Of a DNA stretch of 50,638 bases, positions 3,595 through 50,280 are shown piece by piece (within the stretch, counting starts at the first letter, position 1; every line of letters begins with the position of its first letter). Source of the DNA: a virus. The DNA lies in the IMG/VR virus record IMGVR_UViG_3300022752_000106, positions 1-50,638 of that record; one strand, given 5' to 3'. A program made the position numbers and the translations under genes. The notes under the pieces were generated by a model. It did not search any database. It saw nothing but the letters and a program-made list of their open reading frames with translations, and was not told the origin of the DNA.

Positions 3595-4026
3595 TTAATC
3601 TAACCCAGATGTTCTACCAGCGGATGTTTCACGATCTATCCAAGACTGTTTACCTTGGATGTAGTTTTCTTTAGCTTTTTCAAAATTTTTATCATTAATT
3701 TTAATTTTATTATACCATGTTTCTGATGGGTCTAAAGTTACAGGAGCATTTAGTATGTTAACTCCAAGTTTGTTGATTAAATTTTTTTTATATGATTCAA
3801 AACGATTGTCAAAAGATTTATTATTTAAATCAAGTTTAAGCATTGAATCTTGTAGTTGAGGTAAATGAATATCTAATCGGCTATTAATACCTTTCATTTG
3901 AGAAGGAGAAGCTACTAAAGCTAAATTATCCTTATTTAGATTTTTAAGTGGGATTACTTGACGTGTTTCACTTAACACTTTTTTAATTTCTTCTCTAATA
4001 AGTTCTTTTAGATTAAATTTTTTCAC
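3595..4026 (-). CDS. 143-aa protein with capsid-targeting-like N-terminal helix, unknown
   Basis: Residues 1-20 (MKKFNLKELIREEIKKVLSE) repeat the shared tag with LIRE at 9-12. The rest is Lys/Asn-rich, mostly helical, and ends WIDRETSAGRTSGLD. No catalytic motif or family was recognised. It is the last gene before the terminator at 3544-3565 and its start overlaps the next gene's stop by 4 nt (ATGA arrangement), so it belongs to the operon coming from 5.9 kb. Confidence 0.7.
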   Translation of the reverse strand: MKKFNLKELIREEIKKVLSETRQVIPLKNLNKDNLALVASPSQMKGINSRLDIHLPQLQDSMLKLDLNNKSFDNRFESYKKNLINKLGVNILNAPVTLDPSETWYNKIKINDKNFEKAKENYIQGKQSWIDRETSAGRTSGLD

Positions 4027-4283
4027 GATTTATGTATTTTTAGTTTTAATGTTCCTGTTCCTTTTATCACACGATGCCACTCGTGTCTTGGTATAAATAT
4101 ACGTTCTTTTAGGGAGGTAGGCAAGCAATTATCAAGTTGAAGTTTCCAATCTGTATCTTCTAAAATTTCAACTGTTCTATCTTCATTATCACGATGCCAT
4201 AAAAGTTCAATTGGGTCTATATTTTCGTTAAACTCACGAATAATATATTTGTCTGTAACTTCTATGTCTTTATAAGGTTTCAT
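4023..4283 (-). CDS. small cupin-like phage protein
   Basis: The 86-aa protein has WHRDNEDRTVEILE at about residues 29-42 and IFIPRHEWHRVIKGTG near 63-78, a His/Asp then His pair set in short beta strands as in a minimal cupin barrel. Similar 'WHRD...IPxxxxHRxIKG' proteins occur in T4-like marine phages with no known activity. Its first 12 codons are duplicated at 4846-4884, upstream of the inserted-looking kinase gene. A metal-binding role is likely from the motif; a substrate cannot be named. Confidence 0.65.
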   Translation of the reverse strand: MKPYKDIEVTDKYIIREFNENIDPIELLWHRDNEDRTVEILEDTDWKLQLDNCLPTSLKERIFIPRHEWHRVIKGTGTLKLKIHKS

Positions 4284-4285
4284 TT
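4247..4285. repeat. direct repeat, copy A (5' end of the cupin gene)
   Basis: 39 bp covering the start and first 12 codons of the cupin-like gene; 37 of 39 bases match copy B at 4846-4884. The two copies exactly bracket the protein-kinase-like gene. Confidence 0.8.
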
Positions 4286-4847
4286 ATCCCATTCTATCAA
4301 ATGAAGCATCAAATATTTTTATTTTACCATTATTATCAACTCCTACATTAGGTAACCAAATATCTATTGGTTTGTTTCCAAATACTTTTTTTAATCTAGT
4401 ACAAAAATCTAAACATTTTTTTAATGTGTTATACACATCCATTCTATTTGATTCCTTTGCTTTTTGAAGAATTTGATTAAATGTTTCTAGATCATTTGGG
4501 TTTTGATTAGAGATCATCCTGTATATGTTACTAAGATAATCTTGTTCTCTCCATAGGTTTGTAGTTTCTAAAAAGTCATAAACATTCATTAATTCTTTAC
4601 CAGGAGAATCAAGCTTATCCATGATAACATAATCTTTTGTTAATTTATAGATGCGGGGGAATATATCTGGGTGTTGGTTGAATAAAGTATAGATTTCAAT
4701 CTCATCTTGGGAGAATCCTTTTGGGTTGGTAGACTTTTTGATTATTTTATTTTTTCCAATATTATAAACATTTCCTTGATTTCCATACCCTATTCTTTTT
4801 TTAGGTTGGATTTGGATTTCTCTTAATATGTCTACAAGTTTAATCAT
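4284..4847 (-). CDS. protein-kinase-like protein with capsid-targeting-like N-terminus
   Basis: After a tag (MIKLVDILREIQ) come a glycine loop GYGNQGNVY (residues 20-28), a candidate VAIK-type lysine in KNKIIKKS (about 32-39), a hinge-like YVIMDKL (about 72-78), a catalytic-loop-like DIWLPNVGVD (about 161-170) and KIFDASF in the place of DFG (about 176-182). This is the order of a eukaryotic-like kinase fold, compressed to 187 aa and ending just after the DFG position, so it lacks the usual C-lobe. Activity is uncertain: the HRD histidine is not evident. The gene is bracketed by a 39-bp direct repeat, suggesting insertion into the cupin gene. Confidence 0.65.
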   Translation of the reverse strand: MIKLVDILREIQIQPKKRIGYGNQGNVYNIGKNKIIKKSTNPKGFSQDEIEIYTLFNQHPDIFPRIYKLTKDYVIMDKLDSPGKELMNVYDFLETTNLWREQDYLSNIYRMISNQNPNDLETFNQILQKAKESNRMDVYNTLKKCLDFCTRLKKVFGNKPIDIWLPNVGVDNNGKIKIFDASFDRMG

Positions 4848-4884
4848 TTGTCTGTAACTTCTATGTCTGTATAGGGTTTCATTT
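4846..4884. repeat. direct repeat, copy B
   Basis: 39 bp matching copy A at 4247-4285 with two substitutions. It lies between the 78-aa gene and the kinase-like gene. Confidence 0.8.
4847..4882 (-). pseudogene. fragment of the cupin gene start (12 codons)
   Basis: ATG at 4882 opens MKPYTDIEVTDK, which matches the first 12 residues of the cupin-like protein except for one change (K5 to T). Its stop is the TGA formed where the kinase-like gene begins (ATGA overlap), and its own ATG overlaps the stop of the 78-aa gene in the same way. It is best read as the scar left when the kinase-like gene entered the cupin gene; it may now act only as a translation-coupling leader. Confidence 0.65.
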
Positions 4885-5115
4885 TCTTTTATCTACCCAC
4901 CAAATACAAATATATTCTGTTGGTCCAGCAGGAATTTTACCATCACCATTCCAATCAATATAATATTGACCTTCACACAATTGTGTTTTTTTATTCCATT
5001 TAGCACAGTTAGCACACATAGCACCACCATTTGGAACAGATTTTGCAGGTTGAAAACCACTAGGAAACTGTAGTTTTGGTTGGCTTGCTTCTTTAAGTAT
5101 GTCTATTAGTTTCAT
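4879..5115 (-). CDS. 78-aa four-cysteine protein with capsid-targeting-like N-terminus
   Basis: The tag MKLIDILKEA is very close to the T4 capsid-targeting consensus. Four cysteines at 34, 37, 47 and 70 (CANC, QLCEG, YICIWW) look like one metal site, zinc or iron-sulfur. A 'YYIDWNGDGKIPAGP' loop lies between the third and fourth. The layout recalls very small HiPIP- or zinc-ribbon-like folds, but the family was not recognised. Its start overlaps the next gene by 4 nt (ATGA). Confidence 0.7.
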   Translation of the reverse strand: MKLIDILKEASQPKLQFPSGFQPAKSVPNGGAMCANCAKWNKKTQLCEGQYYIDWNGDGKIPAGPTEYICIWWVDKRK

Positions 5116-5729
5116 TTTGTTTTACCCCATTTAGTACCTTTACCAGGTGTTTTACATTGAGATGCTGTTGGGCGACATGCTGGATATTTGGAGCGTTTTT
5201 CTCCTTCTTCACGTCCACATGCTTTATATCCTGTTATTTTACCATCTTTTCTGATTGGTGCATTACAGTCAACCCATCCACCTTTTTTACCAGGTGTTCC
5301 TTTACGTGCAAACCATTTGTGTAAAGATTCGTCTTCCTGGATAATTTCTAAAATAACTTCTTTTAAACCTTTCCAAATGGTTCCTTGACGGCATTTTACA
5401 ACAGCACCAGATTTGTAAGCAGATGGTTTATCGTATTTGCGATCTGCAATACGAAGGCATCTGTCACGTTTTTTCTTTTCTTCTTGAATATTTTCTTTAG
5501 TTTTAATAAATGTTAGTATTTTAATAATATCATTTAATTTTTTTAGAAAAATTTCAAATTCTTGTGGGTTGTTCTTAATATATTCAGCCCCCAAATCAAT
5601 AAAACCATTTATAGAATAATCAACTATAAGTGTATATTCTCGATAAAGATTAGGTTTTATATCTTTTATATCTAGTAAAAGAGTATCTATTTTATCTTGT
5701 AAAGGTTTTATTTGATCAAAATTGCTCAT
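5112..5729 (-). CDS. 205-aa structural-type protein with two basic phage modules (DUF5872-like C-terminus)
   Basis: Residues 1-80 are a helical, coiled-coil-like region. About 85-120 hold RCLRIADRKYDKPSAYKS followed by VVKCRQGTIWK, and about 135-205 hold SLHKWFARKGTPGKKGGWVD, CNAPIRKDGKITGYKACGRE and a basic Cys/Pro/Gly tail. Both modules are familiar from marine T4-like phage proteins; the second looks like DUF5872. The C-terminus is strongly basic, consistent with nucleic acid contact inside the head, though that is inferred. The start overlaps the 52-aa tagged gene by 14 nt. Confidence 0.65.
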   Translation of the reverse strand: MSNFDQIKPLQDKIDTLLLDIKDIKPNLYREYTLIVDYSINGFIDLGAEYIKNNPQEFEIFLKKLNDIIKILTFIKTKENIQEEKKKRDRCLRIADRKYDKPSAYKSGAVVKCRQGTIWKGLKEVILEIIQEDESLHKWFARKGTPGKKGGWVDCNAPIRKDGKITGYKACGREEGEKRSKYPACRPTASQCKTPGKGTKWGKTK

Positions 5730-5874
5730 CTTCTATATTGAAGTCTTTTTTCATTTTCTCTATCAAATTTGAAAGATTCTGGTTGATTTTAGAGGCTTTT
5801 TTGTTTTTCTCCTCTAAAAGTTTTTGTTGAATAATTTCTTCTTTGATAAGTTGCTTTAATTCAGATTTTTTCAT
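5716..5874 (-). CDS. 52-aa helical peptide with capsid-targeting-like N-terminus
   Basis: ATG at 5874 opens MKKSELKQLIKEEI, the shared tag with LIKE at 9-12, and the rest is one charged helix ending NIEDEQF. It is the shortest tagged protein: little more than the tag plus a coiled coil. It may be a stand-alone piece of the downstream gene's N-terminus, because the two overlap by 14 nt in different frames. The GIY-YIG gene ends 2 nt upstream of it. Confidence 0.65.
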   Translation of the reverse strand: MKKSELKQLIKEEIIQQKLLEEKNKKASKINQNLSNLIEKMKKDFNIEDEQF

Positions 5875-5876
5875 GA

Positions 5877-6662
5877 TTATACATATTTCCAAAGATAACC
5901 AGATGATGATTTTTTATTACCTTTACAACATTGACATATATTTTCATTCCACCCATTTACAGCACGAGCAGCTTCTGTTATACTATTATATTGAGTGATA
6001 TAGTTTCCTTGTTTATCATATTGAGCTACTGGTTTGCTTAGGTTTTTTATATGTTGTATTGATTTGGATTTTCCTTTTAAAGCTTTACTGATTTTATCTC
6101 CTGTATTGAGTTTTTGTCCTTTAGGGCCATGGGTATTTTTTAGTATGTATTCTATTTCATTGATTTGTAATTGTATTGGGTAATTTGGGGTATGATTTTT
6201 CCAAATAAAATTTGCTGATTTTTTGCTTTTACCTATTAAACATTGGCGAATACTTTCATTACTTACTGTAAGGTTTAAAGTAGTTAGTGCTTCATTTATA
6301 TTATCCCACTCATTAATAAATTTTCCTGTTAAATCATATTGAAGAATTTTTTTACCTTTATTTTTGTTAGGGCTAATTCTTCCTTTATGAGCTTGAGAAA
6401 TTAAAGGATTTTCATATCCTCCAATATTACCACATCCACCATTATTTTTATTTTCTAATTTAAAACCCCATTGTTTAAATAGTAAAATATAAAATTCTTC
6501 CCAGTACCTCCATTCTTTTGTTGGAATTTCGTCTATAACTTCTAAAATTACATCTTTCCCTAGTCTATTTTTATGGTGATATTTTCTATCTTTTTCAGAT
6601 ATAGTTTTTCCAATATAAAATGGGACATTGTTTCCTCTATGTAGATAATATATTTTTGTCAT
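5877..6662 (-). CDS. free-standing GIY-YIG homing endonuclease with two NUMOD1-type repeats
   Basis: The N-terminus (MTKIYYLHRGNNVPFYIGKT) has the paired YYL and YIGK motifs of the GIY-YIG nuclease fold, with R and E positions further on (about 55-90). Residues about 95-160 (KKILQYDLTGKFINEWDNI ... IRQCLIGKSKKSANFIWKNH) and about 208-261 (KPVAQYDKQGNYITQYNSI ... GYLWKYV) are two NUMOD1-like DNA-binding repeats. This is the typical build of phage homing endonucleases. It sits between two tagged genes; no intron or intein boundary was seen, so it looks free-standing. Confidence 0.85.
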   Translation of the reverse strand: MTKIYYLHRGNNVPFYIGKTISEKDRKYHHKNRLGKDVILEVIDEIPTKEWRYWEEFYILLFKQWGFKLENKNNGGCGNIGGYENPLISQAHKGRISPNKNKGKKILQYDLTGKFINEWDNINEALTTLNLTVSNESIRQCLIGKSKKSANFIWKNHTPNYPIQLQINEIEYILKNTHGPKGQKLNTGDKISKALKGKSKSIQHIKNLSKPVAQYDKQGNYITQYNSITEAARAVNGWNENICQCCKGNKKSSSGYLWKYV

Positions 6663-37859: not shown

Positions 37860-39022
37860 ACTATATGCATACCATATATATACCGCCGTACGCCACCAGA
37901 CCCCCCTACAGGGTCATAGGGTCACAGGGTCACAAGGTCTCAAATCCACAGAACCGCAAGGTCACCAGATCACTGGGTCACTGGGTCATTGAGTCACTGG
38001 ATCACCAGAGTCACATGGTCACTGGGTTATCCAGGTCACTGGGATCATTGAGTCACCATCATCATATCTCCCCAATGTACCATTGTTAGGGTAACCAGGT
38101 ACCAGGGTTACCCAACTACCAGGGTTGCCAGGGTCACAGGGTACCCAGGTTACCAGGGTCACAGGTCACGGGTCACAGGGTACCCAAGCATCCAATCACC
38201 CAGATAACCAGGGTCACATGGTAACCAGGTACCCAGATTACCCAACCATCCAAGCATCCAGATTCTCAGGTTACGGGTTACCCAAGTAGCCAAGCATCCA
38301 GGTAACCAGGTAACCAAACACCAGGGTTACCATATCACCAGGGTCACCAGGTATCCAGGTACCCAAGTACCAGGATCACAGGGTTACTAGGGTAACCAAG
38401 TAGCCAAGCACCCGGGTCATAGGATCACCATATCACCAGATTACCAGGGTTACCCAACTACCAGGGTCACCAGGTAACCAGGTACCAGGGTCAACCAGGT
38501 TACCCAACTACCCAACCACCCAAATACCAGGGTACCAGGGTAACCAAGTATCCAGGTATCCAAGCATCCAGGTAACCAGGTACCAGGATTACCCCAAGCA
38601 TCCAGGTAACCAGGTACCCAAACACCAGGGTTACCCAAGTACCAGGTTACCCAACCATCCAACCACCCAGATCGCGGGTCACAGGATAACCAGGTATCCA
38701 GGTTACCAGGGTCACCCAACTACCAGGGTTACCATATCACCAGGGTCACCAGGTATCCAAGTACCCAGGTTACCATGGTTACCCAAGTACCAGGGTCACC
38801 AGGTAACCAGGTACCAGGGTCACGGGTCACCAGGGTTACCCAACTACCCAACCACCCAAGTATCCAGGTTCTCAGGTCATGGGTTACCCAACTAGCCAAA
38901 CACCAGGGTCACATGGTAACCAGATACCCAAGTACCAGGGTCACGGGTTACCAGGGTACCCAACTACCCAAGTATCCAGGTAACCAGGTTCTCAGATCAT
39001 TGGGTAACCAGGTAACCATGGT
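37860..39022. repeat. dense degenerate short repeats built on GGTNACC / CCAGGTA
   Basis: About 1.15 kb, GC-richer than all flanking DNA. The plus strand is a mosaic of 7-10 bp words: CCAGGTAACC, CCAGGTACC, CCAGGGTTACCC, CCAGGGTCACC and CCAAGCATCC. By hand I count about 36 copies of the palindrome GGTNACC and about a dozen of GGTACC, where chance predicts fewer than one. The left part (37900-38060) is dominated by GGGTCAC / GAGTCACTGG words, the rest by GGTAACC and GGTTACC. Spacing is not uniform, and open frames only reflect the repeats. Candidate roles: replication origin, packaging or recombination site, or a protein-binding array. Confidence 0.9.
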
Positions 39023-44214: not shown

Positions 44215-44235
44215 GTCTTTTTTTTAATTTATTGT

Positions 44236-44245
44236 AATATACGAA
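44236..44245 (-). promoter_or_regulatory. early-type promoter box TTCGTATATT fused to a hairpin
   Basis: 21 nt before the start at 44214; joined directly to the hairpin at 44245-44266. No second TATAA element follows. Confidence 0.55.
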
Positions 44246-44266
44246 AGCCCTCTTAATTGAGGGCTT
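44245..44266 (-). terminator. hairpin directly upstream of a promoter box
   Basis: Stem AAGCCCTC / GAGGGCTT, loop TTAATT; located just after the stop of the gene at 44272. Confidence 0.7.
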
Positions 44267-44271
44267 CCTTT

Positions 44272-44607
44272 TTAAATTTTATCTTTAAACATCAATATCA
44301 ATTTATCTTCAAGTCCTGAATCTCTTAGGTTTTTTTCTTCTTCATCAATCAACTTATCTAAATCAATACCTAAATCTTTTAATTGTGATTTGAATTGTTT
44401 ATATCTTTCATAGCTTGAATCAACATCAATTCCTAAAAACTTAATATCTTTAACATCAATACCTATTTCTAAATCAGCACTAACACTACCATCTTTACAT
44501 TCATAAATGAATGCTTGGTGGTGTAATGTCATTTCAATTGCATCATTGTTTCCTAATTTTACTTCTGTTTCGAATCCAACCATTAATGTTTTGCTTGTAA
44601 TTTTCAT
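44272..44607 (-). CDS. 111-aa early protein
   Basis: Beta-strand N-terminus (TLMVGFETEVKLGNNDAIEM, HHQAFIYECKDGSVSADLEI) and helical C-terminus (KQFKSQLKDLGIDLDKLIDE). The alternating strands might form a barrel; no family recognised. Confidence 0.55.
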   Translation of the reverse strand: MKITSKTLMVGFETEVKLGNNDAIEMTLHHQAFIYECKDGSVSADLEIGIDVKDIKFLGIDVDSSYERYKQFKSQLKDLGIDLDKLIDEEEKNLRDSGLEDKLILMFKDKI

Positions 44608-45637: not shown

Positions 45638-45660
45638 AACCTTTCTTTTCAATTTACTGA

Positions 45661-45670
45661 AATATACGAA
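45661..45670 (-). promoter_or_regulatory. early-type promoter box TTCGTATATT fused to a hairpin
   Basis: 23 nt before the start at 45637; joined to the hairpin at 45670-45691. Confidence 0.55.
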
Positions 45671-45691
45671 AGCCCTCTTGATTGAGGGCTT
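45670..45691 (-). terminator. hairpin directly upstream of a promoter box
   Basis: Stem AAGCCCTC / GAGGGCTT, loop TTGATT, between the stop at 45717 and the next promoter. Confidence 0.7.
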
Positions 45692-45716
45692 CCTTTATTA
45701 AATTTCTATTTTACTA

Positions 45717-48583: not shown

Positions 48584-48606
48584 AACTTTCTCTTTTTCTT
48601 ACTTGA

Positions 48607-48616
48607 AATATACGAA
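48607..48616 (-). promoter_or_regulatory. early-type promoter box TTCGTATATT fused to a hairpin
   Basis: 23 nt before the start at 48583; joined directly to the hairpin at 48616-48637; serves four closely spaced genes. Confidence 0.6.
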
Positions 48617-48637
48617 AGCCCTCTTAATTGAGGGCTT
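48616..48637 (-). terminator. hairpin directly upstream of a promoter box
   Basis: Stem AAGCCCTC / GAGGGCTT, loop TTAATT, 6 nt after the stop of the 251-aa gene; the same stem as at 44245-44266. Confidence 0.7.
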
Positions 48638-48643
48638 CCTTTT

Positions 48644-49399
48644 TTATTGATTGTTAAACCTTTCTAACAATTCCTCTGTAGGAAGTTTATCAAGTTCAGC
48701 ATCAAACTTTTTGTATAAATGTTCTACGCCATTGTAAGTATCTAATTCAAATTGAACATAACTACCTGATTTGAATTTAACTTCAACTATTTTAAATGAA
48801 CCTTTATACTTAGTATAACCTTCTTTACTTGTCACTTCAGCATCTGGGTAGAGTTTTGTGTATTTTTCAATGGTGTTTTTTTCTAAATTTTCTTTTTGTT
48901 TAAATTCCTTGAATTGATTTGCTGCTTTTTCATTATGTAGTTTTAATTTTTCAAGTATTGTTTTTGGTTTATAGAAACGATATTGTTCTGTAATTGAACC
49001 ACATTGGATTTTATCTTTTTCTACATCAAACCAGAATTTGGCAGGTTTAAGTTTTTTATCTGTTTCCCATATGTAAAAATTCTGCCCCAACAAATATATT
49101 TGTGAATCACATTTTTCATATTCAATTTCAGTTTCAAATGCTGTATTGTTGTAGCTATAACCTAATGTTGTATTACGGGTTTCAACAGTTACTTTACAAC
49201 TTTGTTCAAAATGAACACCCTCAACAAAATCATTTTCAAGTAATAATTCTACAATTTGTTTGTGTCTGTTTTGAGCATACTCTGAACTTTTCTTTTGAGT
49301 TTTAATGTATTTATTTACTTGTTCTTGTTGTTCAGTTGTCAATAATATACCTGCAAATAAATCTAATTGAACGCCAATGTTTGATTTTCTTTTTTCCAT
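48644..49399 (-). CDS. 251-aa early protein, unknown
   Basis: The largest protein of the early cluster. MEKRKSNIGVQLDLFAGILL (the QLDLF may bind the host sliding clamp), then beta strands (CKVTVETRNTTLGYSYNNTA), a Lys/Glu helical zone (about 160-190) and a beta C-terminus (GSFKIVEVKFKSGSYVQFEL). The QLDLF motif at about residues 11-15 matches the beta-clamp consensus QL(S/D)LF exactly, which may point to a replication-related role; no domain was recognised. Confidence 0.6.
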   Translation of the reverse strand: MEKRKSNIGVQLDLFAGILLTTEQQEQVNKYIKTQKKSSEYAQNRHKQIVELLLENDFVEGVHFEQSCKVTVETRNTTLGYSYNNTAFETEIEYEKCDSQIYLLGQNFYIWETDKKLKPAKFWFDVEKDKIQCGSITEQYRFYKPKTILEKLKLHNEKAANQFKEFKQKENLEKNTIEKYTKLYPDAEVTSKEGYTKYKGSFKIVEVKFKSGSYVQFELDTYNGVEHLYKKFDAELDKLPTEELLERFNNQ

Positions 49400-49902: not shown

Positions 49903-50280
49903 TTAAGAATAGTCCTCTATTTTTTTAATTGATGAAAATGGAATTACACCTCTATATTCCACTGTATCTTCTTCATTATCTTGAACATTTTGATCTATGA
50001 ATAATTTATCTCCATCTAATTTACTAACATCAATTGTCAAAATTATAATTTGATCTAAATATGAATCAGGCACCATATCTGAAGATTCAGCATAACTTGC
50101 CGCTACATCAGGATCTTTTGCTAAATAAACATATCCTGAGATTGAATCTTCCCATGCTTTTTTACTTTTAGTAGTATCTAAACCATCTATTTTTATTTTT
50201 TTAAGTAATGGTTTATATGTTGCATGATACAAATATGGTTGATCTATTTTAATTGATTTAAGTATTTCTGTTAATTTCAT
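49903..50280 (-). CDS. ADP-ribosyltransferase-like protein with capsid-targeting-like N-terminus
   Basis: After the tag-like MKLTEILKSIK, PYLYHATYKPLLKKIKIDGL (about 15-34), GYVYLAKDPDVAASYAES (about 49-66) and VEYRGVIPFSSIKKIED (about 109-125) follow the order 'LYHxT...GL', 'xVYLxxxxxxAxxYA' and 'xExxGxIPxxxI' of small ART-fold proteins. The His of YHAT and the Glu near the end would be the NAD-contact and catalytic candidates. It lies among early genes but has an ATATTTATA motif and no TTCGTATATT box. Its target is unknown; other ART-fold activities such as 2'-phosphotransferase are possible. Confidence 0.6.
   Translation of the reverse strand: MKLTEILKSIKIDQPYLYHATYKPLLKKIKIDGLDTTKSKKAWEDSISGYVYLAKDPDVAASYAESSDMVPDSYLDQIIILTIDVSKLDGDKLFIDQNVQDNEEDTVEYRGVIPFSSIKKIEDYS

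Follow-up and report, generated by a model that had tools for sequence, protein, structure and literature searches.

Phages carry large and fast-changing sets of accessory genes, and outside the T-even phages it is, to our knowledge, poorly known how such genes enter and leave chains of translation-coupled genes. The stretch of DNA analysed here, a 50.6-kb virus record (IMGVR_UViG_3300022752_000106, ~30% GC; hereafter the window), raises this question at a single locus, where the start of a cupin-fold gene is present twice and the two copies bracket a kinase-fold gene. Is this the trace of one accident in one genome, or of a way in which accessory genes are added more generally? The baseplate protein has 43% identity with its counterparts in Flavobacterium phage immuto and in a Microcystis phage, which makes a T4-like myovirus likely; judging from sequence similarity, the host may perhaps belong to the Bacteroidota.

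Every gene around 4-7 kb of the window lies on the minus strand, to which all window coordinates of this locus refer. In reading order, a 226-aa gene is followed by a gene for a GIY-YIG/NUMOD endonuclease, a 58-aa tagged ORF and a 205-aa gene (these three at 5112-6662), and then by a 78-aa tagged gene (4879-5115; MKLIDILKEA), a 12-codon ORF (4844-4882; MKPYTDIEVTDK and a stop), a 187-aa kinase-fold accessory gene (4284-4847), the intact 86-aa cupin-fold gene (4023-4283) and a 143-aa tagged gene. The kinase-fold gene begins with the tag MIKLVDILREI, and the DNA encoding its first part (MIKLVDILRE, 4817-4847) is common to many genes of otherwise unrelated sequence. The cupin serves as the conserved anchor of the locus, and in phage immuto the homologue of the 226-aa gene and the cupin are compactly arranged. 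The 12-codon ORF is a truncated cupin start, and we use the term decoy for such extra, cut-off copies of the first 40-50 bases of the cupin that stand ahead of accessory genes in T4-like uncultured phages.

An earlier note on this DNA had pointed to two copies of the cupin start (39 nt, 12 codons) lying exactly on either side of the kinase-fold gene, and our comparison bears this out. Copy 1 (4846-4884) and copy 2 (4247-4285, which spans the ATG of the intact cupin and the codons behind it) lie 599 nt apart and are identical at 37 of 39 positions; when the 14-kb region was shuffled 200 times, the 39-mer reached 24/39 at its best position on average and 27/39 at most, and in a search of the window genome with the repeat this pair was the sole match. 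For both mismatches, each base variant is also found among real cupin alleles of relatives. The contacts between starts and stops are kept on both sides of the kinase-fold gene, as had likewise been proposed: the stop codon of the 78-aa gene and the decoy ATG overlap (AAATGA), the decoy TGA overlaps the kinase ATG (AAATGATTAAAC), and the kinase stop TAA abuts the ATG of the cupin (MKPYKDIEVTDKY...). The description of the kinase as inserted in the cupin gene needs correction, as the cupin is undisrupted and its intact copy follows. If the two copies recombined, the product would be the 78-aa gene coupled to a complete cupin of 86 codons.

The identities of both proteins hold at the level of the predicted fold. 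The cupin gene has at least 487 relatives in IMG/VR, and a search of bacterial genome contigs found none; its structure model (pLDDT 80) matched cupin-fold proteins in all of the top 50 PDB matches (E about 2e-3), in line with a double-stranded beta-helix. The model of the 187-aa protein (pLDDT 86) matched protein kinases and aminoglycoside phosphotransferases with TM-scores of only about 0.4, and this modest similarity points to a protein-kinase-like fold; a Gly, K37, D162 and D180 are invariant in the family, each at its expected position, the last three as the putative ATP lysine, catalytic Asp and metal-binding Asp. Pfam and PHROGs profile searches with the kinase returned nothing above cut-off, and homologues were found in four other loci (L011, L081, L158 and L083). 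In one of these (L083:4458-5200) the kinase relative has a broken start and the cupin an internal stop, either a decayed copy or a sequencing error. A foreign origin of the kinase was sought in its codon use and rejected: its GC content (0.275) and codon score (-0.43) both fall inside the range of its neighbours, and the comparison, suggested in the earlier note, gives no sign of recency.

Relatives show that the site exists both with and without the kinase. In L002 the kinase has no counterpart and the 78-aa gene is followed at once by the cupin, the two overlapping in ATGA as in the window, the very arrangement that the earlier note had proposed to look for; homology between L002 and the window ends 36 nt past the decoy ATG and restarts 2 nt ahead of the real cupin ATG. 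In L011, a kinase 68% identical to that of the window stands directly before the cupin without a decoy, and the same donor-like order is found in L083. As L002 lacks the kinase and L011 carries it before the cupin, its presence or absence is polymorphic. Empty-site pairs with the same left neighbour, this one included, give the same picture, with identities over the 200-nt flank of 189/203 for the window and L002, 199/203 for L019 and L021, and 191/202 for both L013/L003 and L087/L106; two further pairs (L091/L012 and L069/L115) are weaker. For L019 against L021, identity is 96% up to nucleotide 51 of the decoy and then 91% over 3.5 kb from the real ATG, and local alignments also break at the decoy end and restart at the real ATG in L087/L106, L013/L003 and window/L002. 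The relatives thus do not all carry one arrangement with deeply diverged repeats, the pattern named in the earlier note as counting against its reading. Altogether, the slot just before the cupin is occupied by 25 gene families across 86 loci.

Decoys are not confined to the window. We found 12 of them in ten contig groups, that is, in the window and in nine other IMG/VR contig groups: a scan of loci for extra cupin starts revealed decoys in L013, L019, L043 and L069 (three), and searches by pattern and with the kinase added those of L084/L086/L089 (one lineage), L087, L090, L091 and L158. Wherever the contig extends far enough, the decoy lies on the same strand as an intact cupin and upstream of it, within about 2 kb. 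The sample consists mostly of uncultured contigs, and after the first scan it was extended in favour of decoys: that unbiased scan had them in 4 of 80 loci, and the full set has them in 9 of 88 distinct loci. Among isolated phage genomes no decoy was found. With decoys in only 4 of the 80 unbiased loci and many genes adjoining the cupin start without one (e.g., L011, L020 and L008), a decoy is not required for gene gain. The genes behind the decoys differ, and include kinase-like, ParB-like, ADP-ribosyltransferase-like (weak Pfam matches to Tox-ART-HYD1) and cysteine-rich genes as well as one combining an N-terminal region with a NUDIX domain. The last is a 398-aa cassette gene with a tagged N-terminal region (L091:7830-9026, minus strand; NUDIX at Pfam E 2.7e-15), located beside a strongly divergent cupin. 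The claim that the kinase was gained by recombination therefore stands in a modified form: the empty site of L002 supports gain or loss via recombination, and the recurrence in nine other groups shows that this was not a private accident of the window.

The decoys also resemble each other in the junction with what follows them. In 9 of the 12 it reads ...ACAAATATATnTAAyGTGArTAAA: past codon 12 (TAYAYnTAAyGTGArTAAA) there are two more cupin codons and a stop that replaces ATT, then seven bases that are still cupin-like (yGTGArT), and then the start of the accessory gene. The L013 decoy has the end of this junction minus three bases. A degenerate 25-nt pattern of the junction had ten matches in 2.9 million viral contigs, and all of them were decoys. 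Independent scars would not be alike in this way. An assembly artefact from mixed strains would be conceivable in that the material, except for a few isolates, is metagenomic; against this, the same junction is present in contigs of many different samples, and the join between decoy and kinase in the window has four shared bases only, too few to mislead an assembler, so that we regard this explanation as highly improbable.

Two decoys have other junctions, namely that of the window and one of the three in L069, which represents a third type. The window junction (ACAAAT followed by GATTAAAC) corresponds to the common one minus the 24 nt between two AAAT tetramers, and the spacer is absent; a pattern search for this type in viral contigs revealed no other case. 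It is either a 24-nt deletion derivative of the common junction or an independent microhomology join, and because the window does not have the common junction, its place in the decoy lineage is tentative. The second of these possibilities could be a one-off illegitimate recombination, in which an incoming kinase-cupin fragment was joined by AAAT microhomology to codon 12 of the resident cupin start and a homologous crossover in the cupin restored the right side, leaving the repeat as a functionless scar and making the other decoys parallel scars. The uniqueness of the window junction, its position at an AAAT common to cupin codons 12-13 and the kinase start, the donor-like order in L011 and L083, the third junction type in L069, and the readiness with which T4 recombines at microhomologies of 6-10 bp (PMC9391042) all agree with such an event. 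It does not account for nine other decoys sharing one junction before different genes, and the window junction would also result if the common form lost 24 nt. We take the one-off event to be a serious possibility, yet lean against it.

Comparison of each decoy with its own cupin also bears on whether the left copy arose by duplication of the resident gene, as the earlier note had supposed. In L086 and L091 the decoys match their own cupin at 23/33 bases only, but another decoy at 33/33 and 32/33, respectively. These decoys are unlike their own cupin and match other decoys, and the decoy thus travels with the cassette, as far as such 33-nt comparisons with few informative sites can tell. Local duplication is therefore not the general origin of the left copy; in the window it is possible, because the two copies match at 31/33 bases over the compared stretch, a level reached by only 8% of real starts. 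The event had further been called recent. Any two cupin starts in the clade share on average 26/33 bases, so high identity is normal for this sequence and the 95% identity of the window copies cannot alone date the event.

The decoys could alternatively serve expression, as short upstream ORFs that couple the translation of the previous gene to that of the accessory gene. All 12 keep an open short frame with start/stop overlaps or short gaps retained, and differences between decoys are mostly at third codon positions, although recent copies of a coding sequence would show the same bias. The repeat also offers no hint of another role: folding of the repeat region of the window was no better than that of shuffles, with no stem-loop, and a scan for promoters and terminators within copy 1, limited to the sigma-70 consensus, found none, and structured RNA or a promoter was rejected as its role on these grounds. 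However, many tagged genes in the slot are coupled straight to the gene before them, with no decoy in between, and a coupling function leaves the choice of the cupin start unexplained; as the primary reason for the decoys we therefore consider it unlikely. Less probable still is homing, in which the GIY-YIG enzyme would cut the cupin start, repair would copy in the cassette, and the altered decoy would be a resistant site. In the window a GIY-YIG/NUMOD gene is indeed found 1 kb upstream, and L013 has one shortly after its cupin; yet of the 17 cupin loci (among 99) with a GIY-YIG homologue nearby, only these two are decoy loci, so there is no visible association, and the intact downstream cupin retains the presumed target.

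Weighing this evidence, we consider it probable that the site before the conserved cupin is a stacking site, built by recombination, for small N-terminally tagged accessory genes. We infer from the comparisons above that exchange occurs between phages, and its direction, as follows. A cassette would consist of a truncated cupin start, a stop, a short spacer and a tagged gene, read towards the intact cupin. With a copied cupin start at its front and the real cupin at its end, it could pass from a carrier to a co-infecting phage even if the two share nothing but the cupin. One crossover would take place between decoy and cupin start and a second in the body of the cupin, and the recipient's upstream gene would therefore be irrelevant. 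Repeated rounds would stack cassettes, recombination between two cupin starts would delete one cleanly, and the decoy stop together with the start/stop overlaps would keep the translation chain open. Stacking itself is seen in L069, where three decoys follow one another, and each is joined to the end of a different gene in the way expected of the real cupin. A mirror case is found in L067 (334-760), where a gene tagged 'RMQKLAG' stands after the cupin, between two 30-nt copies of the cupin 3' end. More tentatively, the truncated starts with their added stop may be thought of as portable homology arms by which accessory genes would become mobile between phages, which would make the site an integron-like, stackable array that needs no dedicated recombinase and relies only on homologous recombination at the start of a coding gene.

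The N-terminal tag appears to be a second portable block. Most cassette genes begin with MIKLxDILKE or with an LKQLIKEE-like sequence, and 29 body clusters are found behind MIKL-like tags. The 22 MIKL genes compared have unrelated bodies, and they share synonymous codons beyond what codon usage predicts at positions 2, 5, 7, 8 and 10, with no excess at positions 3, 4, 9 and 11; GAC accounts for 12 of 16 Asp codons against a usage of 17%, and ATA for all 18 Ile codons at position 7. Additionally, one ParB-like body is found behind two different tags (in L069 as opposed to L054, L090 and L158). Based on this sharing of synonymous codons and on the ParB-like body with both tags, tag DNA would be a block of its own, and bodies could be exchanged behind the same decoy. 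The tag ends near an (I/L)xE motif, and we liken it to what we take to be the consensus of the T4 capsid targeting signal; this resemblance, and the presence of a T4-type prohead protease and Gp23 in the related phage immuto, make it plausible that the tag directs proteins into the prohead for injection, like the internal proteins of T4. An effector role of the kinase is plausible from its company and its tag, and if packaged and injected it would modify host targets early in infection. A further tagged gene (MKLTEILKSIKIDQPYLYHATYKPLLKKI...) is located at 49903-50280 of the window and by eye resembles the ADP-ribosyltransferase-like cassette genes, with no Pfam match. A third tag type (MDNFDLRKYLAENKL) starts several successive genes in L056 (444-2177), with 85-95% DNA identity.

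Several known systems resemble parts of this arrangement. In an insertion with a long target duplication (Nobusato et al. 2000, as recounted in PMC2749054), a gene likewise lies between long direct copies of its target and relatives have a clean empty site. According to that account the copies are local, whereas several left copies here are foreign (L086, L091) and end in a common, modified way, so the cupin site is not a simple case of this kind. Segmental amplification and deletion at microhomologies in T4 (PMC9391042) offers plausible machinery of a plausible scale and fits the window junction, but it multiplies a phage's own genes within one genome and builds no portable cassettes.

The closest parallel is provided by the internal-protein loci of T-even phages, whose polymorphism Repoila et al. 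reportedly described in 1994 (cited in PMC12373910). The flanking repeat reported for them is an early promoter with an inverted repeat. In those loci, as here, accessory genes vary in number, order and identity at a fixed place (here 25 upstream families and zero to three decoy cassettes), unrelated bodies follow a conserved N-terminal leader, and flanking DNA is repeated, there thought to mediate shuffling. In T4, the capsid targeting signal is all that the internal proteins have in common, and they counter host defence and inhibit host restriction (PMC3012670, PMC12373910). The T-even proteins are packaged in the capsid; for the cassette proteins this is a prediction by analogy. The logic is close to that of the T-even loci. 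The difference lies in the flanking repeat, for which the cupin site uses the beginning of a coding gene, that of the conserved gene downstream, cut short and closed by an added stop. At the cupin site this history is legible, with empty sites, single insertions and a three-deep stack, and with the origin and direction of the repeat visible. If the proposed stacking is true, a conserved gene doubles as a landing pad, and truncated gene starts could be used as a search handle for active accessory-gene sites and candidate anti-defence genes in uncultured phages.

Short repeats also flank accessory genes in the PeSL (promoter/stem-loop) cassettes of T4-type phages, which mediate modular shuffling (Arbiol 2010 and Comeau 2014, as presented in PMC4503421). 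PeSLs are described there as regulatory and non-coding, with a promoter and a terminator stem-loop, and neither a stem-loop nor a consensus promoter was found in the cupin-site repeat. Elsewhere in the window, a GC-richer block at 38090-38990 contains degenerate CCAGGGT/TACCCAAG-type repeats and no clear gene. In L141 (1610-2329), an 88-nt intergenic repeat with a terminator-like stem-loop flanks a gene downstream of the cupin. Between 39000 and 50000 of the window there are at least ten intergenic copies of a PeSL-like, TATACACTCAATATACGAA-like element, with none at the cupin site, and at 44221-44279, 45646-45705 and 48603-48644 this element is joined to a stem-loop (GCCCTCttAATTgAGGGC).
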